64,000 nucleotides of DNA from Mycobacterium sp. UM_CSW (lineage in GTDB: Bacteria; Actinomycetota; Actinomycetes; Mycobacteriales; Mycobacteriaceae): the NCBI RefSeq assembly GCF_000455205.1, contig NZ_AUWQ01000034.1, positions 1-64,000 of the forward strand, given 5' to 3'. The translations under genes and the position numbers were made by a program. This document shows, one piece after another, positions 15,855 through 41,747 of the stretch. Each line of letters starts with the position of its first letter. Position 1 is the stretch's first letter. The notes beneath the pieces are model-generated. The model worked only from the letters and a program-made list of their open reading frames with translations. It was not told where the DNA came from and did no database searches.

Positions 15855-15856
15855 GC

Positions 15857-24797: not shown

Positions 24798-24886
24798 GTA
24801 CGTGCACTTTCGATCAGGGCAAGAGGGATGCTCCGCGTGACGGTGGTTTCACCAGCCGTTCGCCTGTAATGCCCGGCGTACAGTCA

Positions 24887-25057: not shown

Positions 25058-25176
25058 GGTGGATTCCCGGGAAGATACGAGCAACACGAGCGACCGCCAA
25101 AGTCGGCAGGTTCGCTTGGGGGGCGGTAGATCCAATGCGTGCCCGGTTTGGGGACGCCGATCGGTAGTCTGGTTGA

Positions 25177-25298
25177 CGGTATGAAATTGTTCCACTGTGC
25201 CCCAGTTAACAACGTTGCTCCTTTAAAAACAAGGCCCGACCTGCGCTTTTGGGAGTCTTAAGAGGCATCACCGAGGGTGAACTCCACCATCCTCTCAG
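25177..25298 (-). repeat. Leader-type repeat R2, copy B
   Basis: Inverted copy of 15456-15575. On the minus strand it starts directly beside R1 copy 2 and ends at the GTG of the 102-residue frame. Whether it is a promoter, a small RNA or a former gene start cannot be told. Confidence 0.65.
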
Positions 25299-25463
25299 TC
25301 GAATACTCATCTGCGACTTGGGGATTGACCGCGATTGCGATCAATCCCGCCGTCCGGCCAGGCTGAGGACCCTACATCCGATTCGGACGGTCAATCAACG
25401 GTACGGCGACGAGAATATTTGTTAGCGCAGCCTTCAATTACCTTGACGCACTGACAAATTCAC
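25294..25463. repeat. Imperfect direct repeat R1, copy 2
   Basis: Second copy of the 24626-24797 sequence in the same orientation, roughly 85% identical by eye. Its right end coincides with the stop codon of the ACR3 gene. The duplication encloses the 24887-25195 frame and R2 copy B. Confidence 0.75.
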
Positions 25464-26590
25464 CCGACGGAAATTGTGGCTGTACCTGACGGCCACGTCA
25501 GCCGCCGGTGCAGCCACAAGGCCACGTAGACGAGGCCGAGCAGCACGGGTACCTCGATGAGGGGGCCGACAACCCCCGCCAAGGCTTGGCCGGAGGTGGC
25601 TCCAAACACGCCGATGGCGACGGCGATTGCTAGCTCGAAGTCGTTGCTCGCAGCGGAGAACGCGAGGGCCGCCGTCCGGGCGTAGGTAAGGTGTAGCCAT
25701 CGGCCGGCGGCAAACCCACCGACCCACATCACGGCGAAGTAGACGAGCAGCGGCAGTGCGATCCGGGCAACATTCAGCGGTTGGGATGTGATCGTTTTGC
25801 CTTGCAGCGCAAAGAGAACGACCACAGTGAACAGCAGCCCATACAACGCGATAGGCGCTATGCGTGGCAGCAGCTTGCTCTCGTACCACTCTTGGCCGCG
25901 GGCGCGTTCGCCGAGGGTTCTAGTGAGGTATCCGGCGAGCAGTGGGATGCCCAGGAAGACCACGACAGTGACGGCGATGGCGGCGAAGGAGACGTGCAGG
26001 CTCTGGGTCGGTAGGTGCAGCCACGCGGGCAGCACGTTGAGGTAGAAGACGCCCAGGCCGGCGTAGGCCAGCACTTGGAAAATAGCGTTGAGCGCGACGA
26101 GTACGGCGGCCATTTCGCGGTCGCCGCACGCGAGGTCGGTCCAGATCAGCACCATGGCGATGCAGCGGGCGAGCCCGACCAGGATCACGCCGGTACGGTA
26201 GGCGGGCAGGTCGGGCAGCAGCAGCCAGGCGAGTGCGAACATGATGGCCGGGCCGATGATCCAGTTGAAAATCAGCGATACGGCGATCATGCGGCGGTCG
26301 GCGGTGATTCTGCCGATTTCCTTGTAGCGGACTTTGGCGAGGACCGGATACATCATCAACAGCAGCCCGATGGCGATCGGCAGGCTCGTGCCATGGATCG
26401 ACACGGCATTGAGCCAGTCGGACAGTGCCGGGATCAGGCGGCCCAGCAGCAGCCCGGCTGCCATGGCTAGGCCGATCCATAAGGGCAGGAATCGGTCGAC
26501 AGTGGACAACCGGGCCGCGGCGTGGGTGTCGTCCGACGTCGGTGCGCTGGTGGTGCTTGGGTTGTGGGTCATTTGTTCGATCCCATTCAC
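25460..26590 (-). CDS. arsB: ACR3-type arsenite efflux permease
   Basis: A 376-residue permease with ten predicted hydrophobic segments. The ACR3 signature Cys lies in VGLARCIAMVLIW near residue 145, and a second conserved block reads FSAASNDFELAIAVAI near residue 315, followed by VGPLIEVPVL. ACR3 exports arsenite driven by the proton gradient in the cytoplasmic membrane. The first 30 residues are polar and could be shortened to an ATG at 26572. ArsR1 lies 28 bp upstream on the same strand, so the pair is an arsR-arsB operon. Confidence 0.9.
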   Translation of the reverse strand: MNGIEQMTHNPSTTSAPTSDDTHAAARLSTVDRFLPLWIGLAMAAGLLLGRLIPALSDWLNAVSIHGTSLPIAIGLLLMMYPVLAKVRYKEIGRITADRRMIAVSLIFNWIIGPAIMFALAWLLLPDLPAYRTGVILVGLARCIAMVLIWTDLACGDREMAAVLVALNAIFQVLAYAGLGVFYLNVLPAWLHLPTQSLHVSFAAIAVTVVVFLGIPLLAGYLTRTLGERARGQEWYESKLLPRIAPIALYGLLFTVVVLFALQGKTITSQPLNVARIALPLLVYFAVMWVGGFAAGRWLHLTYARTAALAFSAASNDFELAIAVAIGVFGATSGQALAGVVGPLIEVPVLLGLVYVALWLHRRLTWPSGTATISVG

Positions 26591-26618
26591 TTGGTTGCGC
26601 TGGTCGCGGGGACGGTAT

Positions 26619-26993
26619 TCATACGCGGGTCGCTGAGCTGAGTGCTTCGGGTTCCAAGAGTTGCGAGAGTTGCTGCAGCACAGCCTGGTTCACTCGGTAG
26701 TACACCCATGAGGCGCGGCGTTCGCTGTCGAGTAAACCAGCGGTGCGGAGCACCTTGAGGTGATGCGAGATGGTGGGCTGGGTCAGTTCGATCCCTGCTG
26801 ACAAGTCGCAGACGCAGGCTTCGCCCCCGTGGTGGCTGGCCACGATGCTGAGCAGGCGCAAACGGACCGGGTCCGATAGCGCCTTGAGCTTGGTCGCCAA
26901 CTGGATGGCCGCTTCAGCCGAGAGCGGCTCCCGCACCAACGGGACGAAGGCGCACCCCGACGCGTCGGTCACCGGCAGGCGCGACTTCGACAT
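26619..26993 (-). CDS. arsR: ArsR-family arsenic repressor (ArsR1)
   Basis: A 124-residue winged-HTH protein. LKALSDPVRLRLLSIVA is the usual ArsR opening, EACVCDLSAGIELTQPTISHHLKVL the metal motif plus recognition helix, and the wing follows in SERRASWVYYRVN. The CVC motif matches As(III)-binding ArsR/SmtB members. It probably represses its own operon with ACR3 until arsenite binds. The region 27003-27060 upstream holds no clear perfect palindrome. Confidence 0.85.
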   Translation of the reverse strand: MSKSRLPVTDASGCAFVPLVREPLSAEAAIQLATKLKALSDPVRLRLLSIVASHHGGEACVCDLSAGIELTQPTISHHLKVLRTAGLLDSERRASWVYYRVNQAVLQQLSQLLEPEALSSATRV

Positions 26994-27110
26994 GCGTCGA
27001 TATTGACGGGCATCGAATCCATATTCAAGCGAACAATGTATGAACCTGCGAAATTGGCGGAGTCGGCGGGCGGGATGACGTCGGTTCCCGCCCGCCAGTT
27101 GTCGTCGCGG

Positions 27111-27584
27111 TTAGCAGCAGGAGGTCGCCTTCTCCGCGTCGGTGTCAGCCGGCGATCCGCCGCAGCAGACAGTGCCTTCGGTGTCGTCATCGGTGTGCTG
27201 GGGGCTTGAGCCGAACGTGTCAGAGTCGGCCAGCACCGTGTAGACCTCCCACTTCTCGCCAGCTGGCCCGGTTACCCAGACCTTGTCTTGAGTGGCGAAG
27301 CAACAGGTCGTTCCGATCTCCTCGTCGGTAAACAGGCCTTCGCCCTGCAGCCGGGCGATTTCTTCGTGCACCGTCTCGCTTGACTGGACCTCCACGCCCA
27401 GGTGGTTGAGGGTGCCGCCCTGACCGGGGTTCTCGAGGAGCACCAACTTCAGGGGCGGGTCAGCGATAGCGAAGTTGGCGTAGCCGGGCTTGCGCTTGGC
27501 CGGCTCGGTGTTGAACAGCTTGGAGTAGAACGTGATTGCCTCGTCGAGGTTGTCGACGTTGAGGGCGAGTTGCGCGCGGGACAT
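27111..27584 (-). CDS. arsI: ArsI/CadI-type glyoxalase-fold (VOC) protein
   Basis: A 157-residue VOC-fold protein. Paired beta-alpha-beta units begin with QLALNVDNLDEAITFYSKLF and LNHLGVEVQSSETVHEEI. The ArsI signature cysteines lie in GTTCCFATQDKVWVTGP near residue 100, and a Cys-rich tail (CCGG, CC at the end) follows. ArsI cleaves the C-As bond of trivalent organoarsenicals, whereas M. tuberculosis CadI (Rv2641) is metal-induced. It is divergent from arsR2, with a shared operator between them. Confidence 0.85.
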   Translation of the reverse strand: MSRAQLALNVDNLDEAITFYSKLFNTEPAKRKPGYANFAIADPPLKLVLLENPGQGGTLNHLGVEVQSSETVHEEIARLQGEGLFTDEEIGTTCCFATQDKVWVTGPAGEKWEVYTVLADSDTFGSSPQHTDDDTEGTVCCGGSPADTDAEKATSCC

Positions 27585-27608
27585 GAGAGCGGACCTCCAG
27601 ACCTGTGA

Positions 27609-27664
27609 GACATATATCGAAATAGTCGAACACCCGTCAGCATGCCACCTTTTCGATATATGTC
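27609..27664. promoter_or_regulatory. Divergent ArsR operator (14-bp perfect inverted repeat)
   Basis: GACATATATCGAAA at 27609-27622 is the exact inverse complement of 27651-27664. The arms lie 28 bp apart between the divergent arsI and arsR2 genes, beginning 25 bp before each start codon (24 bp for arsR2). Their AT-rich centre fits ArsR/SmtB sites. One arm per promoter, both bound by the same repressor, is the likely arrangement. Confidence 0.7.
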
Positions 27665-27688
27665 AAACTTGTGTGGCAGAATGATCCC

Positions 27689-28048
27689 ATGCCCAAGACA
27701 CTGCCCCTGGTCGATATCGCAGCGCCGGCATGCTGCGCGCCGCTGGCCGCCGGGCCGATGAGCGATCACGACGCTCTGCAGGTCGCCTTACGCCTCAAAG
27801 CACTCGCTGACCCAGCGCGCGTCAAGATCATGTCGCTGCTGTTCAACTCAGCGGCCGCCGAAGAGACCACCGGAGAACTTGCCGCGGTCCTGCGCCTATC
27901 GGAATCAACCGTAAGCCACCACCTCGGCCAACTTCGCAAGGCCGGCTTGGTGGAGTCAGACCGCCGTGGCATGAGCGTTTATCACCGTCCGCACGGGGAT
28001 GCCATGGCCGCTCTCTGCGCGATCCTCGACCCCAACTGCTGCAGCTGA
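27689..28048 (+). CDS. arsR: ArsR/CmtR-like metal-sensing repressor (ArsR2)
   Basis: A 119-residue winged-HTH protein from ATG at 27689. The opening carries a Cys pair (APACCAPL), the core is LKALADPARVKIMSLLF with STVSHHLGQLRKAGLV, and the C-terminus ends DPNCCS. N- and C-terminal cysteine pairs suggest a different metal site from ArsR1, comparable to Rv2642. It is divergent from arsI and most likely controls both. Confidence 0.85.
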   Translation: MPKTLPLVDIAAPACCAPLAAGPMSDHDALQVALRLKALADPARVKIMSLLFNSAAAEETTGELAAVLRLSESTVSHHLGQLRKAGLVESDRRGMSVYHRPHGDAMAALCAILDPNCCS

Positions 28049-28174
28049 TTTCACGTCGTGCCCAGCAAGTCAATCAACGCCCGAGGCCTGTGTCGCGGAC
28101 GGATGCCGTCTTACACGTGAGCGACAAACACCGGCACCAACCGAATCCGCGTTAGGGTCTTGACCTTCTTCGGA

Positions 28175-28196
28175 TAACTCAGTAGTAATTGAGTTA
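28175..28196 (+). promoter_or_regulatory. Palindrome abutting the ArsR-ArsC start
   Basis: TAACTCA-N8-TGAGTTA (perfect 7-bp arms) ends exactly one base before the ATG of the fusion gene. There is no ribosome binding site, so the message is probably leaderless and the palindrome overlaps the transcription start. This would be the binding site of the fusion's own HTH domain. Confidence 0.6.
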
Positions 28197-28901
28197 ATGG
28201 CTATTGAGCTATCTCCTGATGCAGTGCGACGGGTGCAGATCCACGCCGCTTTGGCCGATCCGGGCCGGCTGGTGATCGTCGATCGGCTGCTGCTCGCCGA
28301 CGCATCGCCGTCGGAGCTGCAATCCGCGCTGTCGATGTCGTCGAGTCTGATTGCCCACCATCTGGGGGTGCTTGAAGGTGCGGGCATCGTGCGTCGGGTT
28401 CGATCCGAAGGAGACCGCCGCCGTAGCTATCTGCAGCTGATCCCCGAGTCGCTGGATCTGCTGGTGCCCTCGGCCGAATGGCGTGCCGAGCGGGTGGTGT
28501 TTGTCTGCACCCACAATTCGGCGCGCAGCCAGTTGGCGGTGGCGGTGTGGAATCGGCGCAGCTCGCTGCCGGCCACCTCGGCCGGGACCCATCCCGCGGC
28601 TGAGGTACACCCGAAGGCAGTGGCCGCCGCAGCGCGCCGCAAGCTGCCGATGCACCCGCACACCCCGCGCCATCTCGACGACGTCGTCAAGCCCACCGAC
28701 GTGGTCATCGCCGTCTGCGATAACGCCCACGAAGAACTGCCCGCCGACGGTCGGCGCCTGCATTGGTCCATCCCCGACCCGGTGCGCACCGGCGGCAGTG
28801 ATGCCTTTGACCGGGCCCTTGATGAGCTGACCGTGCGTATTGATCACCTGGCCCCCACGCTCGAACCAGCTAGCACCCGAGCCAACCTCGCCGAGCAGTA
28901 G
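28197..28901 (+). CDS. arsC: ArsR-ArsC fusion (HTH repressor plus arsenate reductase)
   Basis: A 234-residue two-domain protein. Residues 1-95 are an ArsR-type winged HTH ([32 protein letters not shown]). Residues 100-225 are a low-molecular-weight-phosphatase-fold arsenate reductase with the P-loop [10 protein letters not shown] (CX5R) near residue 102 and the acid motif IPDPVRTGG near residue 196. It reduces arsenate to arsenite, which ACR3 exports. The fusion would let the enzyme bind its own promoter. PstS follows 31 bp later in the same direction. Confidence 0.9.
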
Positions 28902-28932
28902 CGCATTGCATCTACCAACGGAGGTAACAACC

Positions 28933-30033
28933 ATGCGCAGTTCACTGAAGTTGTCCGTGGCCGCAGTGGTCTTGCTCGCAGCCACCGGGCTGGTTTTTGC
29001 CGCATGCGCCAAAGAAAAAGACCTCCCCTCGTACGCCAGTGGGGCGAAAGTGCAGTGCGGTGGCAAACAAACGTTGAAGGCCAGCGGCTCGACCGCCCAG
29101 GCCAATGCGATGACACGGTTCGTCAACGCTTACCAAAAAGCCTGCCCCGGCCAGACACTCAACTACACATCGAATGGCTCGGGTGCCGGGGTGAGCGAAT
29201 TCCTCGCGGGCCAGACCGATTTCGGCGGCTCCGACTCGCCGCTCGCCGGAGACGAGTACGCCAAGGCCAAGGAGCGGTGCGGCTCGGATGCCTGGAATCT
29301 GCCCGTGGTGTTCGGCCCGTTAGCGATCACCTACAACCTACAAGCCGTTGACCGGCTGGTGCTCGATGCCTCAACGTTGGCCAAGATCTTCAATGGCCAG
29401 ATCACCCGCTGGGACGACCCGGCGATTAAGGCACTCAACGGCGAGGAGATGCCCTCAGAACCCATCCACGTGGTGTACCGCAGCGACGCTTCAGGCACCA
29501 CCGACAACTTCCAGCTCTACCTCGACGCCGCCGCCGGCGGCATGTGGGGCAAGGGAGCAGGCAAGGCGTTCAACGGCGGGACCGGCCAAGGCGCCTCAGG
29601 CAACGAGGGCACGTCCGCCATGGTGAAGAACACCGAGGGCGCGATCAGCTACAACGAATACTCGTTCGCCCAACAGCAGCGGCTATTCGCCGCCCGAATC
29701 GTGACCTCGGCCGGGCCGAATCCGGTGGCCATTAACAAGGACACGGTCGGCAAGGCCATCACCAGCGCCACCATCGCCGGTCAGGGCAACAACCTGGTGT
29801 TGAACATCTCGTCGTTCTACAAGCCCACCCAGACCGACACCTACCCGATCATGCTGGCGAGCTACGAACTGGTCTGCTCGAAATACGGTGACCCGCAAAC
29901 CGCGACGGCCGTGCGGGCATTTCTGCAATCCACTCTTGGGCCGGGCCAGGCCGACCTGGAAGACTACGGATACTTCCCGTTGCCAGACCAATTTCAGCCG
30001 AAGGTGCTCAGCGCCGCCAACGCCATCAGCTAA
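28933..30033 (+). CDS. pstS: Phosphate-binding lipoprotein PstS
   Basis: A 366-residue lipoprotein. A signal peptide with the lipobox LVFAAC ends near residue 24. Phosphate-contact motifs are [20 protein letters not shown], and the [11 protein letters not shown] loop near residue 175. GGAGG precedes the ATG at 28933. It captures phosphate outside the membrane, but no pstC, pstA or pstB gene follows. Within an arsenic island such PstS copies may favour phosphate over arsenate or bind arsenate; the sequence cannot decide. Confidence 0.85.
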
Positions 30034-30104
30034 CACGTCACAATTGCCCGGCGCATCGCTGCGCCGCAACCGTGCCGCCCGACATATCAGGAGCCAAACC
30101 CCTT

Positions 30105-31559
30105 ATGACCGTTCGTCATATCGTCGCCGTCGGTGGCAGCGACGCTGGCATCAGCGCGGCGCTGCGCGCCCGTGAACTCGACCCCACCACAGAGGTCACC
30201 GTGGTCGTCGCCGACGCCTATCCCAACTTCTCCATCTGCGGCATCCCCTACTACGTCTCCGGGGAAGTCACCCACTGGACCAACTTGGCCCATCGCACCG
30301 CCGCCGACCTGGCCGCCACCGGCATGCGAGTATTTACCGACACGCGCGCCACCGGCATCAACGTCGAGGACCACACCCTCGACGTCCTCGATCCCACCGG
30401 TGCCCCAGAGCAGCTGTCCTACGACGCGCTGATCGTGGGCACCGGCGCCATCAGTGTCCGCCCGCCCATCGCGGGGATTAGTGGCCCTGACGCGCTGGGC
30501 ACCGTCGACGGCGTGCACCTGCTGCACTCCATGGGCGACACCTTCGCCGTCATGGACTCCTTGCAGCAACGCGACCCGGCCACCGCGGTGATCGTCGGTG
30601 CCGGCTACATCGGTCTAGAGATGGCCGAAGCCCTGACCACCCGCGGCATCCGCGTCACCCAGATCGAAGCGCTGCCCGAAGTCCTGCCCACCGTCGACCC
30701 CGAACTCGGGACCCTCGTGCACGCGGAACTCGAACGCAATGGTGTGGAAGTCCTCACCAACACCGCCGTTTCCGCCATCACCCGCACCGACACCGGCGCA
30801 CTAAGCGTCATCGCCACACATGACGGCCAAACCATCTCGCGCACAGTCGATTTCGTCCTCGTCGTGGTCGGCGTACGACCCGACACCGAACTCGCCGCCG
30901 ACGCCGGCGCCGAACTCGGCGTTAAGGGTGCCGTTGTCGTCGACGAAGCCATGCGCACGAACCTGCCCGATATCTTCGCGGCTGGTGACTGCGTGCACAC
31001 CCACCACCGACTCCTCGGGATCACCTGGCTGCCGCTGGGCACCACCGCCCACAAGCAAGGTCGCGTCGCCGGGGAAAACGCACTTGGAGGACAGGCCCAC
31101 TTCGCAGGCAGTTTGGGCACCCAGGTTGTCAAGGTCTTCGACGTAGTCGCGGCCCGGACGGGTCTCCGCGAGCACGAAGCGCTCGCCGCCAATCGCGGCT
31201 GGACTCCCGTGAGCAGCCAATCAAGCCCCGACGACCACAAGGCCTACTACCCAGGCGCAACTCCGGTCCATATCCGCATCACCGGCGACCTACACAGCGG
31301 TCGGCTCCTCGGTGCGCAACTTGTCGGCCACCGCAGCGCCGAAATCGCCAAACGCGTCGACACCTATGCCACCGCCCTCTACCACGAGATGACCGTCGGC
31401 GGCCTGAGCGAACTCGACTTGTCCTACACCCCACCACTCGGATCTCCTTGGGACGCCATCCAAATGGCAGCTCAAACATGGGCACGCCACCACCAGCCCG
31501 CCACAGCAACAGCGGCCTCACAACCGGGAACACGGCGGAATCTTGCTGCGCCCAATTAG
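30105..31559 (+). CDS. FAD/NAD(P)H oxidoreductase, CoA-disulfide-reductase type
   Basis: A 484-residue flavoprotein. The N-terminal FAD motif is AVGGSDAGISAALRA, and the redox cysteine lies in PNFSICGIPYYVSG near residue 40, as in CoA-disulfide reductases and NADH oxidases. An NAD motif VIVGAGYIGLEMAE lies near residue 165 and an FAD-binding DIFAAGDCVHTHH near residue 290. The dimerisation domain is C-terminal. It could keep thiols reduced during arsenic stress. It lies 71 bp after pstS. The real substrate is not known. Confidence 0.8.
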   Translation: MTVRHIVAVGGSDAGISAALRARELDPTTEVTVVVADAYPNFSICGIPYYVSGEVTHWTNLAHRTAADLAATGMRVFTDTRATGINVEDHTLDVLDPTGAPEQLSYDALIVGTGAISVRPPIAGISGPDALGTVDGVHLLHSMGDTFAVMDSLQQRDPATAVIVGAGYIGLEMAEALTTRGIRVTQIEALPEVLPTVDPELGTLVHAELERNGVEVLTNTAVSAITRTDTGALSVIATHDGQTISRTVDFVLVVVGVRPDTELAADAGAELGVKGAVVVDEAMRTNLPDIFAAGDCVHTHHRLLGITWLPLGTTAHKQGRVAGENALGGQAHFAGSLGTQVVKVFDVVAARTGLREHEALAANRGWTPVSSQSSPDDHKAYYPGATPVHIRITGDLHSGRLLGAQLVGHRSAEIAKRVDTYATALYHEMTVGGLSELDLSYTPPLGSPWDAIQMAAQTWARHHQPATATAASQPGTRRNLAAPN

Positions 31560-31794
31560 GTGAAATGCGCGCCAATCACCATAAGAAGGAACACGCTAAG
31601 CGTGGCCTGCGGGCGGACGTCGAGGGTAGGTGTGACCGAACGCCTCGGGGTTGGCGGGCGGATCAGCCTTAGTTCTCCGGTCGACTGGTAGCGGGGGCAG
31701 CCGCGCAGATGCGACCGCAGAGGAAATTCATGATCGGCGAGGACTCAACGTGGCAAAATCTCGACAGAACCTAAAAAATTGAAGTGGAGGTTAG

Positions 31795-32346
31795 ATGGTG
31801 ACTCGACGAGACCCAGAATACGCGGGCGACCCGGCACATACGCCAAAAGAAGTCGAGCGGAAATTTCTAATTAATCCCAAGCAGGTTCCCGCCGATTTGC
31901 GCGACAGAGTTGAGCGCGAGTTGGCGCTGAAGCAGGGCTATATCGCGGTCGCAGCGGATGGTTCAGAGCTGCGAATACGGAGCACGAATGCTGAAGGATT
32001 TGAACTAACTGTAAAGTCAAGCGGCGATATGGTTCGGGGCGAGTCGAACATTGAAATTACTCCAGAGATGTTCGCAGCTCTATGGCCTAAGACTGAAGGC
32101 GCACGAGTCGAAAAGACACGCCTGCAGATACCATATGGACCACAGACGATAGAGGTTGATATCTATGACGGAGAGCTCGAGGGTCTAGTTGTCGCCGAAG
32201 TAGAATTTCATGGTAACGAAGAGTTAGGTGTGAGCCCAGAGCGACATGCGGAAGATTTTGTACCACCTGATTGGTTTGATAAAGAAGTCACATTTGACAA
32301 GGCTTATAAAAACAAAAATTTGGCAACCAGAGGTCTGCCCAGTTGA
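31795..32346 (+). CDS. CYTH-domain protein (triphosphate tunnel fold)
   Basis: A 183-residue protein with the CYTH signature EVERKFL (ExExK) near residue 20. Following strands bear basic residues (ELRIRSTN, FELTVKSS) and the acidic EVDIYDGELEGLVVAEVEF near residue 120. These proteins bind or cleave triphosphate substrates such as inorganic triphosphate, ATP or thiamine triphosphate. The gene is visibly more AT-rich than its neighbours. GTGGAGG lies upstream. The dGTPase-like gene lies about 0.85 kb downstream. No partner domain is fused. Confidence 0.75.
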   Translation: MVTRRDPEYAGDPAHTPKEVERKFLINPKQVPADLRDRVERELALKQGYIAVAADGSELRIRSTNAEGFELTVKSSGDMVRGESNIEITPEMFAALWPKTEGARVEKTRLQIPYGPQTIEVDIYDGELEGLVVAEVEFHGNEELGVSPERHAEDFVPPDWFDKEVTFDKAYKNKNLATRGLPS

Positions 32347-32925
32347 GTGGCCGACCGGGCTGCTTTCGGCGCGCGAGTGGGAATTCCTCAGCGGCTAGCC
32401 GCGTGTACGTCCTGCCGCTTCAACGCCGTCACCCTTGGATGTCAAGACGCCCAGGGATCGATGTCATCGGCTGCGGCGTCGACCGACATGAGACGGCAGG
32501 CCTCCAAGATGAAGTCCAAGACCAAGCGAGCCCCCAGCAGTGGCATACACATCCAACATCCGCCAAGAACTTGCCGCCTGAGGTGACCCGAGGGGTCGAC
32601 GCTGTCGGTCTAGGCCGGTAATCTCACGCGTGTAAGTAGCCAACAGGGTACAGGGCGTCTACGGCCCCTCAGGCTGGCAACTCGGGGTCGCCACCAACCC
32701 GGACGCTTGAGCCCTGCGACTGCAGACACACCGATCCTGGGATGGGAGACGTCGGTGAGGAGCGACACGCCGTGCGCTTGGGGGAAAACGTGCAGAGCCG
32801 CGCATCTTGTCTGACACAATGGCACGCATACGAAGCGCCGCTCTCCGCAGGGCGTTGTAACTTCCACCATATGCGCGCGAAGAGGACGAGGAGATAATTA
32901 ATTAGAAAGGCAAAGAATACAAGCG
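32347..32925. other. Non-coding GC-rich gap between AT-rich genes
   Basis: No convincing gene is seen in this 580-bp stretch. Several frames are open but have no start signals and no protein-like pattern. It is G+C-rich, unlike the genes on either side, so it may be an older chromosomal or plasmid fragment between two acquired pieces. Confidence 0.4.
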
Positions 32926-32970
32926 TTGAGAGAGAAATTTATCCATTCATATATAGGCAAAGGAGCGTAC

Positions 32971-33186
32971 GTGTCAATTCTTGAGTTGTCCCCGTCCGAG
33001 GGCACCAAGCGCATGCAGCAGATCGAGGACACCATAGTTTCATCCGTGACAGAAGCACCCATGTCGATGGATCAACTATATCATAAAACGACTGACCTTA
33101 CCGAATGCTCAGAGGACGACTTTTATCTCGTCCTCTCCAGGATCGACTACAGCGTCGATGACGAGAATATAGTACATCTTAAGTAA
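32971..33186 (+). CDS. Small winged-helix-like protein A (flanks dGTPase)
   Basis: A 71-residue protein starting at GTG 32971, chosen for AAAGGAG 7 bp upstream. It has two helices (KRMQQIEDTIVSSVTEAPMS, then MDQLYHKTTD) and an end reading DFYLVLSRIDYSVDDENIV. The layout and the VDxENxV ending resemble the small protein at 34778-35059 on the other side of the dGTPase-like gene. It stops 5 bp before the dGTPase start. It may be a small regulator. Confidence 0.55.
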   Translation: MSILELSPSEGTKRMQQIEDTIVSSVTEAPMSMDQLYHKTTDLTECSEDDFYLVLSRIDYSVDDENIVHLK

Positions 33187-33191
33187 GCAAC

Positions 33192-34709
33192 GTGGCAACC
33201 AAGCCATCGCTTGAATCGCGCGTGCATGCCATTATTCCGAATGATCCGGATCAGGCGGCAAAACGCTCGACGCGTCCGTATGCAAAGCCTAAAAGCGGCG
33301 GTGATGCGCGATCCGAGGGCCAGCGCGACCGAGATAGGGTGCTGTATTCGACAGCATGGCGCCGATTAGGTGGAGTTACTCAGGTTGTAACTCCATTTAG
33401 TGAGTTGCCGCTGCTACACAACCGGCTAACACACTCCGAGAAAGTCGCACAAGTTGCACGGAGCATCGCGGAGGCGAAGATCCTCAGCGCTAACGAGACG
33501 ACACAAAAACTGGTGCAGAAACTTGGCGGATTTGACCTGGACGTGTGTGAGGCGGCCGCGCTTGCGCATGACCTTGGTCATCCCCCGTTTGGGCACATTG
33601 GTGAAAAAATCCTCGATGATGTCGCACGGAATAAAGAAATCCTGGACTTAGACGACGGCTTCGAAGGCAATGCCCAGAGCCTGCGGATTCTAGTTATCGG
33701 CAAGATTAGAAGCAACAAATACGAAGGAAATAACCCTACGTATGCCACCATAGCCGCGGTATCTAAATATCCCTGGAAGCGGGCAGGTAAACGGGCGGAT
33801 CACGACGAAATAATAGATACCGATTCGGAATATCGTAAGCACTGGAAGAAATTCAGTGCTTACGACCCGCAATACGAGCTCCTGACGCAGGCAAGAGAGT
33901 TCCTTCCGCCTTGCATCAGCGAGAAGGAAATACAGTCACTCGAAGCTTCCGTGATGGATGTCGCCGATGACATCACATATGCGGTCCATGACCTCGAAGA
34001 CTTCTACTTGGCCGGGATTCTCGACGTCTCGTGGATACGCGAAGATCTGGAAAAGTACATACGAGGAGAGCAAAAGACTGGTGATGTTTTCTTCGAACTC
34101 GCGAGCCGCCTAGGCGTGGATTATTCCGGCTGGTTCAATGACGATGAAATGATCCGTGCTGCAGAGTGGGCAGAGCGGGAACTGAAGTCTGGATTCAACC
34201 GTCGGCAGGTTAACTACAGTGAGGTGGAAGCGCAAGCACGCAAACGCGGCTCTGACTTCATCGACACGTTTATAAATGCGATTGAAGTGCGTGATGAGCC
34301 CTTCTGGACGGGCGGACCGTATGTCGGGCTTGACGAGCGCAACTGGCACCGCGTTCAAATCCTCAAAGAGATTACACGATCGTATGTTGTGCAGCGCCCA
34401 GACATTGCGCTTCTTCAACGGGGGCAACAGGAGGTGCTCGAAAAATTCGTGAAGCTGCTGTACGAATGGAGCGAAAACGATCGAGCTCGCCTTCCTGCGC
34501 GGCTGAAGCGTGAGATTGAAATCGCGGAAGAACAGCTTGATGGAGGTTCGACAATTGGTTATGGAAAAGACCAGCATGCACCAAGAGGCAAGAATAAGAA
34601 TCGCGCCATTCTCGACTACATATGTACTCTGACTGATTTGGAATGCCTGCAAATATACTACAAATTAAGCGGCATCCAGGTACATCGACCAGGTATGGTT
34701 AGCTTCTGA
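33192..34709 (+). CDS. dGTPase-like HD-domain triphosphohydrolase
   Basis: A 505-residue protein with the dGTPase pattern. YSTAWRRLGGVTQVV near residue 52 is followed by NRLTHSEKVAQVARSIA (first metal His), AALAHDLGHPPFGHIGEK near residue 120 (HD pair), and VMDVADDITYAVHDLED near residue 255 (fourth ligand). Such enzymes split dNTPs into nucleoside and triphosphate, and dGTPases can block phages by draining dNTPs. The segment between the HD and last Asp is longer than usual and lysine-rich. The gene is AT-richer than the chromosome. The start is GTG. Confidence 0.85.
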   Translation: MATKPSLESRVHAIIPNDPDQAAKRSTRPYAKPKSGGDARSEGQRDRDRVLYSTAWRRLGGVTQVVTPFSELPLLHNRLTHSEKVAQVARSIAEAKILSANETTQKLVQKLGGFDLDVCEAAALAHDLGHPPFGHIGEKILDDVARNKEILDLDDGFEGNAQSLRILVIGKIRSNKYEGNNPTYATIAAVSKYPWKRAGKRADHDEIIDTDSEYRKHWKKFSAYDPQYELLTQAREFLPPCISEKEIQSLEASVMDVADDITYAVHDLEDFYLAGILDVSWIREDLEKYIRGEQKTGDVFFELASRLGVDYSGWFNDDEMIRAAEWAERELKSGFNRRQVNYSEVEAQARKRGSDFIDTFINAIEVRDEPFWTGGPYVGLDERNWHRVQILKEITRSYVVQRPDIALLQRGQQEVLEKFVKLLYEWSENDRARLPARLKREIEIAEEQLDGGSTIGYGKDQHAPRGKNKNRAILDYICTLTDLECLQIYYKLSGIQVHRPGMVSF

Positions 34710-34777
34710 GGCAACGGTACTTTCGTGTTTCACCAATAACCAGCGCTGTAATCGCAAGTACTCCATAGCCAAGGTCC

Positions 34778-35059
34778 CTAGGGGTAAATAGCAAAGACGT
34801 CGTTCTCGTCCACAGTGTGCTTCACATGGGTCAATGCCAGATCCACTTCCGCAGGTTTGAATTGGCTCTCGTTCTCGAGCTCCGCATGAAGATCATCGCG
34901 GCTGATGGGACCCTTATCCTGGAGTAATCTCCTCACAGCTAGCACAATAGACTGAAGTCGCAAGATGCCATCGACAGGGCGCATCTCATAAATGGTCATG
35001 GTTGGGGTTGCCATTTCTCCTTCACCTGCTTCTTCGATTGTTTTCGGATTCTGCTCCAT
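34778..35059 (-). CDS. Small winged-helix-like protein B (flanks dGTPase)
   Basis: A 93-residue frame; a shorter start at 35014 is possible. Its C-terminal 60 residues share the layout of the small protein at 32971-33186: LRLQSIVLAVRRLLQDKGPIS, DDLHAELE, and LTHVKHTVDENDVFAIYP. It is convergent with the dGTPase-like gene, so the two paralogues bracket that gene. The following 35060-35511 has no gene that I can support. Confidence 0.5.
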   Translation of the reverse strand: MEQNPKTIEEAGEGEMATPTMTIYEMRPVDGILRLQSIVLAVRRLLQDKGPISRDDLHAELENESQFKPAEVDLALTHVKHTVDENDVFAIYP

Positions 35060-35511
35060 ATATTCAAATCGCTATACTGTTTTCTCAATTTATCTGGCAT
35101 TAATTATCAGGTTTAATCGGTGTGAAAGATAGGGTGAAAAATACAACGCCACGCCGAAGTACGCCACGCGTGCCGCGACGGTGCGGGTAGCGAGGGGCAA
35201 TCACCTTTGACCCACACAGGCCAACCGTAATGGAGACCACCGACATTGGGACTGCCTCGACGCATCGTTGACATGTGTGTTCGCTGGGCTATGCCTCTAC
35301 GCACGCCGTACTCGCTGTGCCGCTTTCACGTCGCCTTTCGTGTACTCGCCCTGGCACAGAACGAGCCCTCCCCAGCTGAGGCGACGACCCGATTGACGAC
35401 CTACCGCGCTCCCGACTCCGAACTCGCCTGGGTGCTCCCATCATCACCGCACGTCCGCGCCAGATCAGTGCATGACCTGGCGATACATCGACAGCCGAGC
35501 CGGGCCTTTGC

Positions 35512-36030
35512 TCAGCTCATTTGGGATCCGGCAGCGAATAGCTGCCGTACGCGCCGAGTGAGCTCCCAATACTCGGGGATGGTCAGTTCCGTGATCAACG
35601 ACATGATGTGATCGATCTTGTTCACATCAGCCGGCTTCTGACTATTGGCGTCGACCGCAAGCCGATGCAATAGATCGGCGAAATACGCAATTGCGTTGTA
35701 CTCCGGCCGCTTTCGGAACGTTTCGACCGAGTCATAGCCGAGCCGCTTCGCCGCGACCTCGCGTAGGACAGAGGGTCTCGCACCGCGACGTCCTATTTCA
35801 AGGCCGAACAAGATGCCGATAGCCGTGCCCTGCGCGCCCTCGGCATACGACGTGAAAGCGTGTCGAAGCATCCGCTCGATGTCGTCAGCGCTGCCAGCCC
35901 CCATCGTCGCCGTCGCGAGCTTGGACAGCTCGGGCAGTTCATCGATGCGCTCCCGCAGCCGGTGCAGGCCGGTCTTGCGAACGATCTTCAGCTCATTGAT
36001 GAGTGCTCCGCGTCGCTCTTGTTCCGGCAT
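35512..36030 (-). CDS. Hypothetical helical protein
   Basis: A 172-residue, mostly helical protein (ELKIVRKTGLHRLRERIDELPELSKL, then DDIERMLRHAFTSYAEGAQG and GYDSVETFRKRPEYNAIAYFADLL). The N-terminus is Arg/Glu-rich. Its charge pattern suggests a cytoplasmic regulator or accessory protein. No family is recognised. It is divergent from the small operon leading to the mobility genes, 125 bp apart. Confidence 0.55.
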   Translation of the reverse strand: MPEQERRGALINELKIVRKTGLHRLRERIDELPELSKLATATMGAGSADDIERMLRHAFTSYAEGAQGTAIGILFGLEIGRRGARPSVLREVAAKRLGYDSVETFRKRPEYNAIAYFADLLHRLAVDANSQKPADVNKIDHIMSLITELTIPEYWELTRRVRQLFAAGSQMS

Positions 36031-36155
36031 AACCCGATTCTGCCCTGATATCTACCATTCTACGCCCAGAAAATGCGACATCAGCGGGAGGACCATGGAT
36101 GACGAGGGGATATCGCATTCACTGATGGCCCGAAGTTGACCAGAAAGGACTCACA

Positions 36156-36524
36156 ATGACGTACGAACTGGAGCCGATGAAGCAGCGCAGGCCAGAGTTA
36201 CCCCCCGCACTACCGCCGTTCTCAAAGGAAGCGCGACAGGTGGCGCAGATGGACCGCCAGTCCATCGTCCGTGCCCGCGAGGACTTCAACCGGGTGCGGG
36301 AGCACCTACACCAGCTCGAGCTCAGTCGGCTAGCTGAGAATGCCGAGGCGGACATGCGTGAGGAGTGCACCATCCATGCCATGCGTAACGCACGGGAGGT
36401 TGATGACGCCGCGCGACACTTCGAAGGCGGCCGCGAAGGCCTCGCCATGACCATCCGGGAAATGCAGGCGGCCTACAACACCGGCGAGATCGCACACATC
36501 GCGATGCGGGGATGTCACCGGTAA
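36156..36524 (+). CDS. Hypothetical coiled-coil protein
   Basis: A 122-residue protein with a long charged helix (REDFNRVREHLHQLELSRLAENAEADMREE) and Pro-rich start (RPELPPALPPFSK). GAAAGGA precedes the ATG. It begins a run of small genes leading to the coupling ATPase; the next start overlaps its stop (TAATG). Role unknown. Confidence 0.55.
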   Translation: MTYELEPMKQRRPELPPALPPFSKEARQVAQMDRQSIVRAREDFNRVREHLHQLELSRLAENAEADMREECTIHAMRNAREVDDAARHFEGGREGLAMTIREMQAAYNTGEIAHIAMRGCHR

Positions 36525-36775
36525 TGGCTGCGCTTCCCTGCTTCGAGGATCTGTGGAACGGCGTGACCTGCCTGGCGGCCGCACCTCCACCGGTTGACCC
36601 GCTGATCGAGCGCCTGCGCCAGATCAGCCAACAGCTCGTCGAGGAAAAGCGGGCGATGGACCGTCGTGCCCAGCAGGTGATCCGTGCGATGCAAGCCGTC
36701 GCGTCGGCCGCCGGACAGGACGGGTCGACGGTTCAAGACGATACGAGCGTCGAGCGGTGGGTCGTGACCGAATGA
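36524..36775 (+). CDS. Hypothetical small helical protein
   Basis: An 83-residue protein whose ATG overlaps the previous stop. An amphipathic helix runs LIERLRQISQQLVEEKRAMDRRAQQVI, followed by an acidic tail. The tight coupling implies joint function with the coiled-coil protein before it. No family is recognised. Confidence 0.5.
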   Translation: MAALPCFEDLWNGVTCLAAAPPPVDPLIERLRQISQQLVEEKRAMDRRAQQVIRAMQAVASAAGQDGSTVQDDTSVERWVVTE

Positions 36776-36830
36776 TTCCCTACTGCGCAGCCAGTCGAAA
36801 TGAAGCGGTTCCGAATCATCGGGGTGGACC

Positions 36831-37040
36831 GTGAATAGCTCGGGACCGGGTCACTTCGTCGACCGGCTCATCGGCTGGTGCTTCAGCATCCTGGCCGCAG
36901 CGATCGCGCTCTACTGCGCAGTCAAGCTGCTCGCGGACATCTTGCCGGCGCTGGTTGTTGTGGTCGGCGCGCTCACGCTCATCAGCCTGGTCGTCGGGGC
37001 GGGAATCGTTGTGTTCCGCACAATACGAAACCGTTGGTGA
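36831..37040 (+). CDS. Small two-helix membrane protein
   Basis: A 69-residue protein from GTG, with two hydrophobic segments (residues 16-36, IGWCFSILAAAIALYCAVKLL, and 40-62). Ends are short and polar. Small membrane proteins of this type sit in many mobile-element transfer operons. Its role is unknown. Confidence 0.55.
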   Translation: MNSSGPGHFVDRLIGWCFSILAAAIALYCAVKLLADILPALVVVVGALTLISLVVGAGIVVFRTIRNRW

Positions 37041-37103
37041 TTTCATGACATTTCGTATCAAGAACGTCTGTTCCTTTCGGTGTTGTGTTATGTACCAAAG
37101 TCA

Positions 37104-37163
37104 TTGAGCGTTGCATCGAAGCAACGCATAGTAGGAATGTGCGCCCGTTGATTTGATTCAACG
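37104..37163 (+). promoter_or_regulatory. Mobility-operon promoter with two operator palindromes
   Basis: A -35 box TTGAGC (37104-37109), a 17-bp spacer and -10 CATAGT (37127-37132) form a plausible promoter. The perfect palindrome GCGTTGC-ATCGAA-GCAACGC (37108-37127) fills the spacer. A second, CGTTGA-TTTGAT-TCAACG (37146-37163), lies just past the expected start. Both share the half-site and 6-bp spacer of the palindrome before the XRE gene. An oriT role is an alternative reading. Confidence 0.65.
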
Positions 37164-37210
37164 CTAAGCGCCATTCACCAACTCACCGAATTTACAAAGG
37201 GAGGATAGCC

Positions 37211-37468
37211 ATGTCTAAAACAGGACGATCAAACCAACGCCGCGGACCACGCGGCACACGAAAAGCGCAGCGACGCACTGTCGTTCTCGGGGTCAGACGG
37301 AAGCCTCCCGATCTGCCCAAGCTCAGTCGGGCAGTCATCGCCATAGCCATGCGCGAGGCCGAAGCAGACGCTGAGGTCAAAGCGGCCATAGCCGACTGGG
37401 CGCCGGACGAACTACAAGACGAAGACAATCCTTCAAAAGGATCAGACGTGGAGGTCGGTCATGACTGA
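37211..37468 (+). CDS. Small basic protein preceding the coupling ATPase
   Basis: An 85-residue protein with a very basic first third (RSNQRRGPRGTRKAQRRT), then a helix (KLSRAVIAIAMREAEADAEV) and an acidic tail. GGGAGG lies 8 bp before the ATG. It overlaps the start of the ATPase gene by 8 bp. A DNA- or ATPase-binding accessory role is plausible but not shown. Confidence 0.6.
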   Translation: MSKTGRSNQRRGPRGTRKAQRRTVVLGVRRKPPDLPKLSRAVIAIAMREAEADAEVKAAIADWAPDELQDEDNPSKGSDVEVGHD

Positions 37469-39662
37469 CCAACTAGACGTTCCGCTCACCGCCGACTCGC
37501 TATTCTGGCAGCAGTTCTTCTTTCAGCAGCCGTTCCAGGAAGCGAAAGCCGTTGGTCTGCTCAGGCATTGGGCGGCTCAAGACCATGCACCCCAACTCAT
37601 CCTTGAGGCTCGTTCGGATGTCACCGGTGTTGAGTACTTAGTTGGCAGCCAACTGCGGCACGCACAACAGGTACGCCGGTCAGTCGAGGACCTCGTTGAG
37701 GGCTCGATCGTGACGAGTTACGAACCGGGCGATCGAGAGCAGATCAGCACTGCGCGTCGGCTGCAACTGACCACCACCACGCGACCGCTTGAACCATCAG
37801 ACCCGGTGGCGGCGGGCCGGTCAATCCTCCACGCCCTCACCGCAGTTCAGCGCGGCGAGCGCATGGTCATTCAAATCGTGCTCGGTCCGCGCTACCAGCC
37901 ATTGCTCGGTCCCCCAGCGCCAAACCGCGCCGATCAACCGGTTCTTTCGAAGGTGCTCCACGGCGTCCTCCCCGAGCAACGACCTGATTCCCGGCAGGCG
38001 TTGGCCCACAAGCTGGGCCAACACGGCTTCCGAGCGGCACTGCGGATTGGCGTCGATGCTGCCACGGCTGACCGGCGTCGTACGTTACTGCTTGGCCTGG
38101 CGGCGGCAATCCGGACTGCGGAAGCACCAGGCGTGCACCTAAAGCTCAGACCTGAGAAGCCGCGGGAAATCAACGCCCCACGTTCAACGTGGTCGATGTT
38201 CACTCGCTCGCAGCATCTGACAGTGACGGAGGTTGCGCGACTCACCGGTTGGCCCGTGTCCGATCGCGATGAGCCGTTTCCGGGCCAGCCACCACGGCAT
38301 CCGAAACCTGTGCGACCGAGCGGGGCCGTGCAAACGGGTGAACGCGTTGTGGCAACAGCCAATGCGCCAGGCGCTGAAGGCCCAGTCGGCTACAGCGTCA
38401 CTGATGCACTCCGGCACACGTGGGTGATCGGTCCCAACGGTGTTGGCAAATCGACGCTCCTGCTCAACCTGATCGTCCAAGACCTTGAGGCCGGTCGGCC
38501 GATTGTCGTCGTCGAGCCAAAGGATTTGGTCCGCGACATCTTGGCCCGCGTCCCCGAGCACCGCAAGGAAGACATCGTGCTTGTCGACCCCTTTGACGTG
38601 GCGCCAGTCGGCATCAACCCGCTCGACAGCCGCTACCGTGATGGACGCCAACCTGAGGTCGTTGCCGACGCGCTGTTTGGCACCTTTAAGGCAATCCATG
38701 GCGACAGCCTCGGTCCGCGTAGTGCCGACATTCTTCGCAATTCGCTCGACGTGCTCGCGCGGCGCGACGACGCGTCGCTGGTGATGCTGCCGCTGCTGCT
38801 GACTAATCCCGGCTTTCGCCGCTCGCTCACGCAGCACACCATGCGCGACGACCCCTATGCGGCCGGGCCCTTTTGGCAATGGTTCGACAGCCTTTCGCCG
38901 GAAGCCATCGCGACGACCGTCGCACCGCTGAGCAACAAGCTGCGACCGCTCCTGACCAAACAGCTCCGCGCGGTGCTGGCTCAGCGTTCACCGAAGTTCA
39001 ACATCCGCCAAGTCCTGACCGAGAACAAGGTGCTACTGGTGCCGCTGCAAAAGGGCGTCATCGGCCCCGAAAGCGCGCAACTCTTGGGGGCACTAGTCGT
39101 AGCCGAACTCTGGCAAGCCATCCGCGAACGAGCCGGAACATCGGAAGGGACCCGCACGCCGCTCATGGTCTATATCGACGAAGTCCAGGATTACCTGCGC
39201 CTGCCAACCGACCTTGGTGATGCACTCGCCACGGCTCGCGGCCTTGGCGCCGGCTTCCACCTGGCGCACCAGTACGAGAAGCAGCTGCCGCCGGCCATGC
39301 TGGATGCCTTCCGCAACAACGCCCGTTCCCGCATCTGCTTTCAGCTGCGGCCCGGCGATGCCAAGGAGATGGTGGCCGGTCAATCGGTGCTGAGCGTCGA
39401 GGACTTCGGCATGCTGCCCGCGTACCACGTCTACGCGAGCCTGGTACGCGACAACGCCGTGCAGCCGTGGGCTTCCGGTATCACCAGCGCACCGCCGCCC
39501 AAAACCAGCGACCCGGACGAGATCCGGCGACTGAGCCGGGAGCGCTATGGCCAACCACTCGATGACATCGAAACCGGCTTCTCCGAACTCCTCAGTGGTG
39601 CAGCCAAAGCGGAGAAATCAGATGAGATGGGCGGACCGAAACGGCGACGGAGGCAGGCATGA
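37461..39662 (+). CDS. VirD4/HerA-like DNA-transfer ATPase
   Basis: A 733-residue ATPase. Walker A is IGPNGVGKSTLLLNL near residue 322, followed by RPIVVVEPKDLVRDIL. Walker B is MVYIDEVQDYLRL near residue 570. A later block (NARSRICFQLRPGDA) matches the TraD/TraM-recognition C-terminal fold. The N-terminal 280 residues are a separate domain without membrane helices. This family couples DNA to a transfer pore or pumps DNA. It overlaps genes on both sides (ATGACTGA and ATGA). Confidence 0.8.
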   Translation: MTDQLDVPLTADSLFWQQFFFQQPFQEAKAVGLLRHWAAQDHAPQLILEARSDVTGVEYLVGSQLRHAQQVRRSVEDLVEGSIVTSYEPGDREQISTARRLQLTTTTRPLEPSDPVAAGRSILHALTAVQRGERMVIQIVLGPRYQPLLGPPAPNRADQPVLSKVLHGVLPEQRPDSRQALAHKLGQHGFRAALRIGVDAATADRRRTLLLGLAAAIRTAEAPGVHLKLRPEKPREINAPRSTWSMFTRSQHLTVTEVARLTGWPVSDRDEPFPGQPPRHPKPVRPSGAVQTGERVVATANAPGAEGPVGYSVTDALRHTWVIGPNGVGKSTLLLNLIVQDLEAGRPIVVVEPKDLVRDILARVPEHRKEDIVLVDPFDVAPVGINPLDSRYRDGRQPEVVADALFGTFKAIHGDSLGPRSADILRNSLDVLARRDDASLVMLPLLLTNPGFRRSLTQHTMRDDPYAAGPFWQWFDSLSPEAIATTVAPLSNKLRPLLTKQLRAVLAQRSPKFNIRQVLTENKVLLVPLQKGVIGPESAQLLGALVVAELWQAIRERAGTSEGTRTPLMVYIDEVQDYLRLPTDLGDALATARGLGAGFHLAHQYEKQLPPAMLDAFRNNARSRICFQLRPGDAKEMVAGQSVLSVEDFGMLPAYHVYASLVRDNAVQPWASGITSAPPPKTSDPDEIRRLSRERYGQPLDDIETGFSELLSGAAKAEKSDEMGGPKRRRRQA

Positions 39663-40636
39663 GACGAGAAGACAACCACGATCATGCCGGTCCAATCGGT
39701 GATCCGATCCGCTTGAGTAACAAACCGCCCCTGACCTCAATAAATGACAAGTCAGGGTTGGCGAATGATGGTGCCCATACGGGCACCACACCCCCGAAGC
39801 AGACGAAGAAGCGCCGGACCCAGTCCCACGACATTGAGGCATTGCGGGAACGACTGAGCGAACGCGACCTAGCAATACTGCGATCCGTTGCAGAGCACCA
39901 ATTCCTAACTGTTCGCCAAATCGAAGCCTTCTACTTCGCCGATCACCCATCGGCAACTGGTGGACGACTGGCCCGGCGAGCATTGGCGCGGATGCGTAAT
40001 CTGCGCCTCCTCGGTGCCACCAACCGGCGGGTTGGTGGCGTCCGCAGCGGGTCCGCGGGCATGGTGCACTACATCGATGTTGTGGGCGATCAGCTGCTCG
40101 ACGGGCGGTCAGGCAGGGGGTCGCGCCGCTTCTTCAACTGGTCGCAACGATTCGTGCACCACCGCCTGGCGATCGCTGACACTCATCTGGCGCTGATCGA
40201 GGCTGATCGGCAAGCGCAGCTTGAACTCGTTGAGTGCTTGGTCGAGCCAGCATCCTGGCGCCGGTTTGTTGGCCTCGGCGGTGCTCGCCTCGCCCTGAAG
40301 GCCGATCTTTACATCGAGATCGCGACCACGCCGGGTAGCGACTTCGTCAATCCTTGGTTTGTCGAATTGGATCTCGGGACAGAGAGCATCGCGACGGTGC
40401 TGAAGAAATGCCGCGACTACGAGGCCTACCGCCGGACGGGAACTGAGCAAGCTGACGGCAGCGGCTTTCCGCTCGTCGCGTGGAGCATGACCCATCCCGA
40501 CCCGACCAAGGCCGAGCGGCGGCGGCTTGCCCTCCGTGATGCCATCGACAACGACCGCAATCTGCCCGCTGCACTATTCCGCATCATCGCGCCAGACAAG
40601 CTGATCCCGTTGCTAACGCGTGGAGGCGCCGTATGA
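39659..40636 (+). CDS. Replication-relaxation family protein
   Basis: A 325-residue protein. After a disordered start (residues 1-55) comes the replication-relaxation winged-helix motif SERDLAILRSVAEHQFLTVRQIEAFYF near residue 62, with RRALARMRNLRLL following. The rest is a mixed alpha/beta domain with FVELDLGTESIATVLKKCRDY. Members sit near transfer ATPases in actinobacterial elements and are thought to help replication or relaxation of plasmid DNA. Overlaps with both neighbours mark one operon. Confidence 0.75.
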   Translation: MRREDNHDHAGPIGDPIRLSNKPPLTSINDKSGLANDGAHTGTTPPKQTKKRRTQSHDIEALRERLSERDLAILRSVAEHQFLTVRQIEAFYFADHPSATGGRLARRALARMRNLRLLGATNRRVGGVRSGSAGMVHYIDVVGDQLLDGRSGRGSRRFFNWSQRFVHHRLAIADTHLALIEADRQAQLELVECLVEPASWRRFVGLGGARLALKADLYIEIATTPGSDFVNPWFVELDLGTESIATVLKKCRDYEAYRRTGTEQADGSGFPLVAWSMTHPDPTKAERRRLALRDAIDNDRNLPAALFRIIAPDKLIPLLTRGGAV

Positions 40637-41661: not shown

Positions 41662-41747
41662 CAAGCCACAGGCCTCATCGGTGTCATGCGGTCGTTCCCG
41701 TAAGCGCACCACGCGCTTACCGGCCGCACAGCACCGAGGAGGTCGCT

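Follow-up and report, generated by a model that had tools for sequence, protein, structure and literature searches.

A 64,000-nt stretch of DNA from Mycobacterium sp. UM_CSW (contig NZ_AUWQ01000034.1, positions 1 to 64,000; hereafter the window) carries a gene for a deoxyguanosine triphosphate (dGTP) triphosphohydrolase, or dGTPase, between the genes of two small proteins, wHTH-1 and wHTH-2. Small winged-helix partners of this kind are conserved with one dGTPase clade in bacteria and archaea, and in the window the dGTPase/winged-helix module is cargo of a mobile element. With moderate confidence, we interpret it as a mobile two-component antiviral module, consisting of a dGTPase effector and a dedicated winged-helix regulatory subunit gating the enzyme. 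The effector would lower dGTP during phage infection; the winged-helix protein, made just ahead of the dGTPase, would restrain it, or would switch it on upon infection, through contact. In the window, the winged-helix gene is duplicated, both copies reading inward behind the same cis-element. The genome to which the window belongs, as contig C34, is 6.39 Mb in size, and its genus, order, and class have been broadly sampled.

The dGTPase gene (33192..34709, + strand) starts with a GTG codon 5 nt past the wHTH-1 stop and encodes an HD-domain protein that passes the TIGR01353 model (225.5 bits vs a cut-off of 152.35) and scores 258.8 bits with the PADLOC dGTPase model, for which no cut-off is shown. 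Residues H81, H126-D127, H135, E138, and D259-D260 are invariant in our alignment A2. The HD metal site and the HE dyad follow each other in steps of 9 and 12 residues, the same as in the defense dGTPase CloA, whose catalytic residues are given as H117-D118, H126, and E129 in a passage of PMC12265719. All 17 sequences returned by a PDB search with the dGTPase are dGTP or deoxynucleoside triphosphate triphosphohydrolases. The enzyme would hydrolyze dGTP. It scores below the housekeeping-type actinobacterial Dgt equivalog NF002829 (205.3 vs a cut-off of 385 bits). A second Dgt-like gene lies elsewhere in the same genome (45% identity over residues 27–285) and is presumably the housekeeping copy. 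The distribution of dGTPases of the window type is patchy: at E 1e-40, they occur in 2 of the 198 genomes searched within the genus.

wHTH-1 (71 aa; 32971..33186, + strand) has a GTG start with AGGAG 5 nt ahead and an alternative TTG start at 32926. wHTH-2 (93 aa; 34778..35059, − strand) is convergent with the dGTPase gene and ends 68 nt past it. A preliminary description, made from the letters of this DNA, had placed a dGTPase-like HD enzyme between two related small proteins with a common helix layout, as our analyses bear out: the enzyme keeps its catalytic residues, and AlphaFold2 predicts an H-H-H-E-E winged helix for both neighbors (mean pLDDT 83.5 for wHTH-1 and 84.7 for wHTH-2). As judged by sequence comparison, the two are paralogs (22% identity over 68 aa, E 1e-5), and none of 5000 shuffles reached their Smith–Waterman score of 63, the best scoring 52. 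The VDxENxV-like common ending described earlier is similar but not identical in the two proteins (SVDDENIV and TVDENDVF). Their PDB fold matches, among those listed, are largely winged-helix domains, BlaI, MecI, BrxR, and CapW included. Both proteins are strongly acidic (isoelectric points of 4.2 and 4.6), and neither passes the threshold of any family in Pfam, NCBIfam, PADLOC, or PHROGs; the best scores with the first three libraries were 13.2 bits for Sec20 and 12.5 bits for WH_Rok.

We gathered dGTPase loci at the level of the window's own genus, order, class, and phylum, added those of three other phyla, and also drew on GTDB contigs, plasmids, and IMG/VR contigs. Merging at 99% identity brought 167 rows to 162 distinct loci, five near-identical pairs being joined. 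The seeds of a winged-helix profile were first chosen by eye from lists of upstream open reading frames (ORFs), where ORFs of the winged-helix type, about 60–90 aa long, recurred ahead of the enzyme; the profile comprised 22 sequences, including both window proteins and a fusion protein (locus L061), and was run against the 14,996 ORFs of the loci. A small partner adjoins or is fused to the enzyme in 22 of the 162 loci, a figure that is no measure of prevalence since several searches used alignments of partner-bearing dGTPases. Matches below E 1e-7 occur only adjoining or fused to a dGTPase, and the next match anywhere has an E value of 0.075. The partner is a separate same-strand upstream gene in 20 loci, window included, is fused in one (L061), and is convergent in one (L195), the position also occupied by wHTH-2. 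The L195 partner, which was not a seed, was detected at E 2.3e-8. In leave-one-out searches, 16 of the 22 seeds scored below E 0.05, with close relatives such as L042 and L043 assisting each other. wHTH-2 was recovered when left out (E 2.8e-4, or 6.1e-4 with both window sequences out), and wHTH-1 scores 40.0 bits (E 2.6e-10) against the family hidden Markov model with wHTH-1 itself in training.

The partner follows the phylogeny of the enzyme. On a dGTPase tree of 60 rows, thinned from 157 by keeping all positives and removing others more than 60% identical to a kept row, its distribution takes 3 gains or losses, whereas shuffled labels give 17.6, with none of 500 shuffles reaching so low a value. 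All 21 partner-bearing rows fall within a 28-row group with a support of 92, of which 27 group at 96, in what is a quick tree with SH-aLRT support only, a midpoint root, and L050 omitted for its broken dGTPase. Similarly, the 19 top rows of a dGTPase profile (at least 414 bits) all have the partner, and below this score it occurs only in L061, where it is fused, in the truncated L055 and L006, in the broken L050, and in L062, which is an incomplete copy of the window.

The hosts span Actinomycetota, Spirochaetota, Pseudomonadota, Acidobacteriota, and haloarchaea. Besides Actinomycetota, the phylum of the window, the bacterial hosts are a Spirochaetia metagenome-assembled genome (MAG; L032), Martelella (L042), Sinorhizobium (L043), an Acidobacteria MAG (L050), and a genome of the same phylum (L198); the archaeal ones are represented by plasmids (L093, L095, and L097), and 5 of 33 IMG/VR loci on viral contigs carry the partner. 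The winged-helix form is rare. Counted as lower bounds that include the center genome of each search, with upstream DNA taken from at most 30 loci per search, all above a score limit, it is present in at least 6 of 296 genomes of the phylum of the window, 2 of 198 of its genus, and 5 of 325 of its class, as well as in at least 1 of 398, 2 of 199, and 1 of 120 genomes of the phyla of Martelella, L050, and L032, respectively. The order search (397 genomes), which also matched the genome with the fusion (G344), revealed the partner in none of the 29 other loci among the matches listed. In tblastn searches of 72,556 plasmids, two members produced no convincing match, but these searches were weak and missed even the three haloarchaeal plasmid members. 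Among known families, the nearest is the Pfam winged helix WH_Rok, which the L056 partner matches at E 2.2e-5 (24.9 bits vs a cut-off of 27.6), further evidence for the predicted fold; no Pfam cut-off was reached by seven members besides the window pair, and none of eight members, six besides that pair, scored below E 0.09 in PHROGs. Such a small gene is easily overlooked in annotation: it is labeled "hypothetical protein" in the Salinigranum record and omitted from that of Salinirubellus. The Salinirubellus salinus plasmid (L095, L194) contains the winged-helix/dGTPase region twice, the dGTPase of the second copy being annotated as two ORFs.

The two genes are tightly coupled. Among the 18 of 20 upstream cases in which coupling was measurable, 15 have a possible dGTPase start −4 to +24 nt from the partner stop; the exceptions are L042 and L134, with only overlapping TTG starts (40 nt and 14 to 29 nt, respectively), and L132, with a 37-nt gap. 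In pairs of partner genes, the nonsynonymous differences (pN) are well under the synonymous ones (pS), at 0.22 and 0.88 for L042/L043 (pN/pS of about 0.25) and 0.33 and 0.66 for L131/L140. In L061, from the same genus as the window, the winged-helix domain is fused to the N terminus of the dGTPase in a single frame of 551 aa, which argues for contact between the two. This fusion gene is flanked by 300-bp direct repeats (6741-7040 and 9272-9571, 98% identical), likely an insertion scar, which overlap copies of a gene that is DsbA-like by eye.

Type II toxin–antitoxin systems, too, have a small gene that precedes a larger one and is coupled to it. The nearest rival to a gating subunit is a labile antitoxin and autorepressor, whose decay upon shut-off of transcription by a phage would free the dGTPase. 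This fits the position of the small gene directly ahead of the enzyme, the two paralogs with one shared and equally spaced cis-element described below, and the hypothesis, in a passage of a review (PMC12409349), that defense dGTPases sense transcription shut-off. The L061 fusion, however, leaves no antitoxin to be degraded separately, and the dGTPase of Shewanella putrefaciens (SpdGTPase), which is not in our tree, hydrolyzes dGTP alone in vitro according to part of PMC12265719. We regard the antitoxin form as rather unlikely.

Both window wHTH genes are preceded by the same element. Copy 1 (32851..32902, + strand), upstream of wHTH-1, consists of GGCGTTGTA-NN-TT-N-CACC-N-TAT followed after 20 nt by GATAATTAAT; copy 2 (35099..35150, − strand) lies upstream of wHTH-2. 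The copies agree at 18 of 22 plus 10 of 10 positions with identical 20-nt spacing. The 18-nt core has exactly two copies in the 6.39-Mb genome and no exact copy in 57 other genomes of the genus, and GATAATTAAT is confined in the window to the two elements, with 0.00 expected. Allowing up to two mismatches, the core has three further genomic sites, and a backward control pattern has four. It was not found in the other dGTPase loci compared, and a tblastn search (E 1e-3) detected no dGTPase in any of 54 viral stretches that contain it. A scan for the sigma-70 consensus was uninformative (one promoter-like site vs 2.4 expected). As the proteins have drifted to 22% identity while the letters and spacing of the element are kept, the element points to a common regulator or promoter; together with the inward orientation of the two genes at either end of the unit, it suggests a shared, perhaps self-made, transcriptional control.

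The 22-nt element may also mark the ends of a transposon, as inverted repeats that terminate a small mobile unit, since its copies point toward each other close to the edges of an AT-rich block. The same 20-nt spacing to GATAATTAAT in both copies speaks against such ends, as do the lack of an exact core in the 57 other genomes and of a dGTPase in the 54 core-bearing viral stretches.

The element common to both window promoters, the winged-helix fold, and weak PDB matches that include BlaI, MecI, BrxR, and CapW are also what would be expected if the small protein were only a transcription factor of its own operon, making no contact with the dGTPase. However, a pure transcription factor is made less likely by the fusion to the enzyme in L061. 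In addition, there are strongly acidic members, the two window proteins among them, and members adjoin enzymes of a single dGTPase clade repeatedly across five phyla, in loci chosen by their dGTPase. We consider this explanation decidedly unlikely.

Defense genes occur beside the module in 6 of the 16 relatives inspected, 14 of which were scanned (20 proteins, hand-picked by size) and 2 assessed by annotation. The pair lies near Hma in L043 (HmaB, 975 bits; HmaC, 693.8 bits), PglX in L199 (1735 bits), RT-nitrilase in L195 (832 bits), a type IIG restriction-methylase in L196 (2064 bits), and a SAVED-domain protein in L198; in L095, an annotated CBASS cyclase is found about 2.3 kb from the dGTPase. 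L131 has a phage-type integrase near the pair, and the only PADLOC match in L060 is of the helicase type. As a control, itself small and hand-picked by size, 10 neighbors from 7 partnerless loci yielded one protein with PADLOC matches, a helicase at up to 46 bits.

The window module resides in a 35.6-kb integrative element (9676..45326, no strand assigned) bounded by perfect direct repeats of 26 bp at 9676-9701 and 45301-45326; the right copy is the 3′ end of a tRNA-Ser(tga) gene (45301-45390). G+C content is reduced across much of the region from 10 to 45 kb of the window. On its right side, the element encodes a TrwB-like ATPase (37461-39662), a Replic_Relax protein (39659-40636), and a serine recombinase (43461-45371). 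Its cargo also includes a Gabija pair (GajA, 734.6 bits; GajB, 626.7 bits with PADLOC), a SIR2-domain protein, a T5orf172 protein, and a HipA-like protein whose score is slightly short of the cut-off. The recombinase ORF crosses the attachment-site repeat into the tRNA-Ser gene (43461-45390), so that its final codons are host DNA and could change upon excision. Direct repeats are also found within the element (24626-24797 and 25294-25463), with segments of 110 and 59 nt that are 85–88% identical and 666–668 nt apart.

Given this mobile and defense context, antiviral dGTP depletion is the likeliest role of the module, and this part of the preliminary proposal of a nucleotide-depletion defense stands. 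One could instead envisage an ordinary metabolic dGTPase hitch-hiking on a mobile element with a small gene as chance neighbor, given that many genomes of the order and class carry dGTPases of a related type on the chromosome. Such a coincidence is very improbable in view of the patchy distribution within the genus, the second Dgt in the same genome, the defense neighbors in several unrelated loci, and a pairing far beyond that obtained with shuffled labels.

Several observations nevertheless weigh against an antiviral module with a conserved regulatory subunit. The window dGTPase scores below the NCBIfam model of anti-phage dGTPases, NF041026 (201 vs a cut-off of 400 bits), and L054 and L056 showed no PADLOC match among their scanned neighbors. 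Seven rows of the clade are partnerless: five chromosomal dGTPases of the Micromonospora/Brevibacterium type, L197, and L015. The L195 gene is convergent at the 3′ end of the dGTPase gene, hence co-translation is not universal. The PDB fold matches of the window proteins are weak (best E values of 0.048 and 0.08), and 6 of the 22 seeds failed in the leave-one-out searches (wHTH-1, L032, L060, L050, L196, and the L061 fusion). As wHTH-1 scores E 150 when excluded from the profile, and E 360 when both window sequences are excluded, its tie to the family is given by its paralog wHTH-2, its fold, and its position rather than by its own score. Finally, the net charge of the small proteins ranges from −14 to +9. 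This spread speaks against simple DNA binding as what the members have in common, and a conserved DNA-binding role of the winged helix is not supported, although single members may still bind.

The preliminary description had counted a fourth gene in the system, encoding a CYTH protein (31795..32346, + strand; Pfam CYTH, 35.6 bits vs a cut-off of 23.2) that would cleave the triphosphate released by the dGTPase. The four genes are where it had placed them, and the CYTH domain match and the adjacency in this single window are in favor of such a system. The AT-rich island that was thought to unite them, however, consists of two patches of truly low G+C, the CYTH gene and the block formed by the dGTPase and the two small genes (about 32.85–35.15 kb, G+C of 0.45–0.58), with about 600 bp of mostly G+C-rich DNA between the CYTH gene and the module (0.60–0.65 at 32.35–32.85 kb). 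The four genes consequently do not look like one unit. Conservation extends to the small winged-helix partner of the dGTPase clade but not to CYTH: a tblastn search with the CYTH protein (E up to 1) against 207 loci less five window copies matched only L206 and L207, both fetched for their CYTH genes. In two inspected records out of 26 CYTH plasmid records, the neighbors are NUDIX, CHAD, AAA, or unrelated genes, with no annotated dGTPase. We rejected CYTH as a member of the module on these three grounds, namely that it was not found at the other dGTPase loci searched, its separate low-G+C patch, and its other neighbors elsewhere. With the CYTH gene standing apart, the cleavage of released triphosphate is not supported, and we give the four-gene system next to no credence. 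In the Paracoccus marcusii plasmid (L206), the CYTH relative belongs to a run of CHAD, AAA ATPase, CYTH, NUDIX, and CYTH genes, which may form a separate set for processing phosphate or nucleotides.

Among the closest known parallels is Clover, which combines the defense dGTPase CloA with the nucleotidyltransferase CloB and in which active-site mutants of the nucleotidyltransferase are toxic, so that a defense dGTPase can need a dedicated inhibitor, as far as a part of PMC12265719 goes. The module proposed here would likewise pair a defense dGTPase with a dedicated regulator in two genes. The partner described here is instead a winged helix of about 60–93 aa, directly ahead, convergent, or fused, and no nucleotidyltransferase Pfam match (E up to 1) was found in the nearby ORFs scanned (P0001, P0002, P0004, 35512-36030, and 36156-36524). 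avcID likewise joins a nucleotide-pool effector to a small regulator, which, in the text excerpted from PMC10511110, are a deoxycytidylate deaminase and an RNA antitoxin rather than a dGTPase and a protein. Housekeeping-type actinomycete Dgt (NF002829) shares the fold and the presumed chemistry of the window enzyme, which differs by its score under the cut-off and by coexisting with a second Dgt in its genome. The anti-phage SpdGTPase was reportedly described by Tal and colleagues in 2022. It resembles the window enzyme, which matches the PADLOC dGTPase model, in being an HD-type dGTPase with the same catalytic residues. It is treated as a single protein in the passages concerned (PMC12265719), whereas a winged-helix partner is conserved here. 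The named gammaproteobacterial row of our tree (Enterovibrio, L045) belongs to another branch. BrxR and CapW, the latter a WYL-type regulator, similarly tie a winged-helix domain to defense genes and are weak fold matches. In contrast, the partner, at about 70 aa, is too small to include a WYL or other ligand-binding domain, and one member is fused to the effector.

Other dGTPases also have small upstream neighbors. A separate family of ORFs of about 62 residues (...ELRTLQ...GTWTL...) lies directly upstream of another dGTPase lineage in L102, L130, L133, L145, and L146, that is, in one genome from the Pseudomonadota search and four viral contigs. This family, which emerged from an all-against-all comparison of upstream ORFs, is unrelated to the winged-helix family. 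The same comparison showed that an ORF of about 200 aa, possibly a 5′-nucleotidase of the YfbR type, stands ahead of Enterovibrio-type dGTPases (L045–L049 and L118). Small dedicated partners may be common to mobile dGTPases, and the 62-residue family is a hint that these enzymes may, as a rule, have a small switch dedicated to them.

Anti-phage dGTPases are a known kind of effector; what appears to be new, judging from the sequences compared, is the winged-helix partner, of which we found no mention in the open-licence papers searched. We tentatively propose, at somewhat less than even chances, that these loci constitute an undescribed antiviral system of bacteria and archaea in which a winged-helix protein of about 70 residues, as a separate, doubled, or fused subunit, would act as a phage-responsive switch of the dGTPase. 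If true, a clade of mobile dGTPases would thereby gain its first known regulator. The winged-helix partner is a good candidate for the missing switch of antiviral dGTPases, and its conservation in bacteria and archaea, once as a fusion, makes the control of these enzymes open to experiment.

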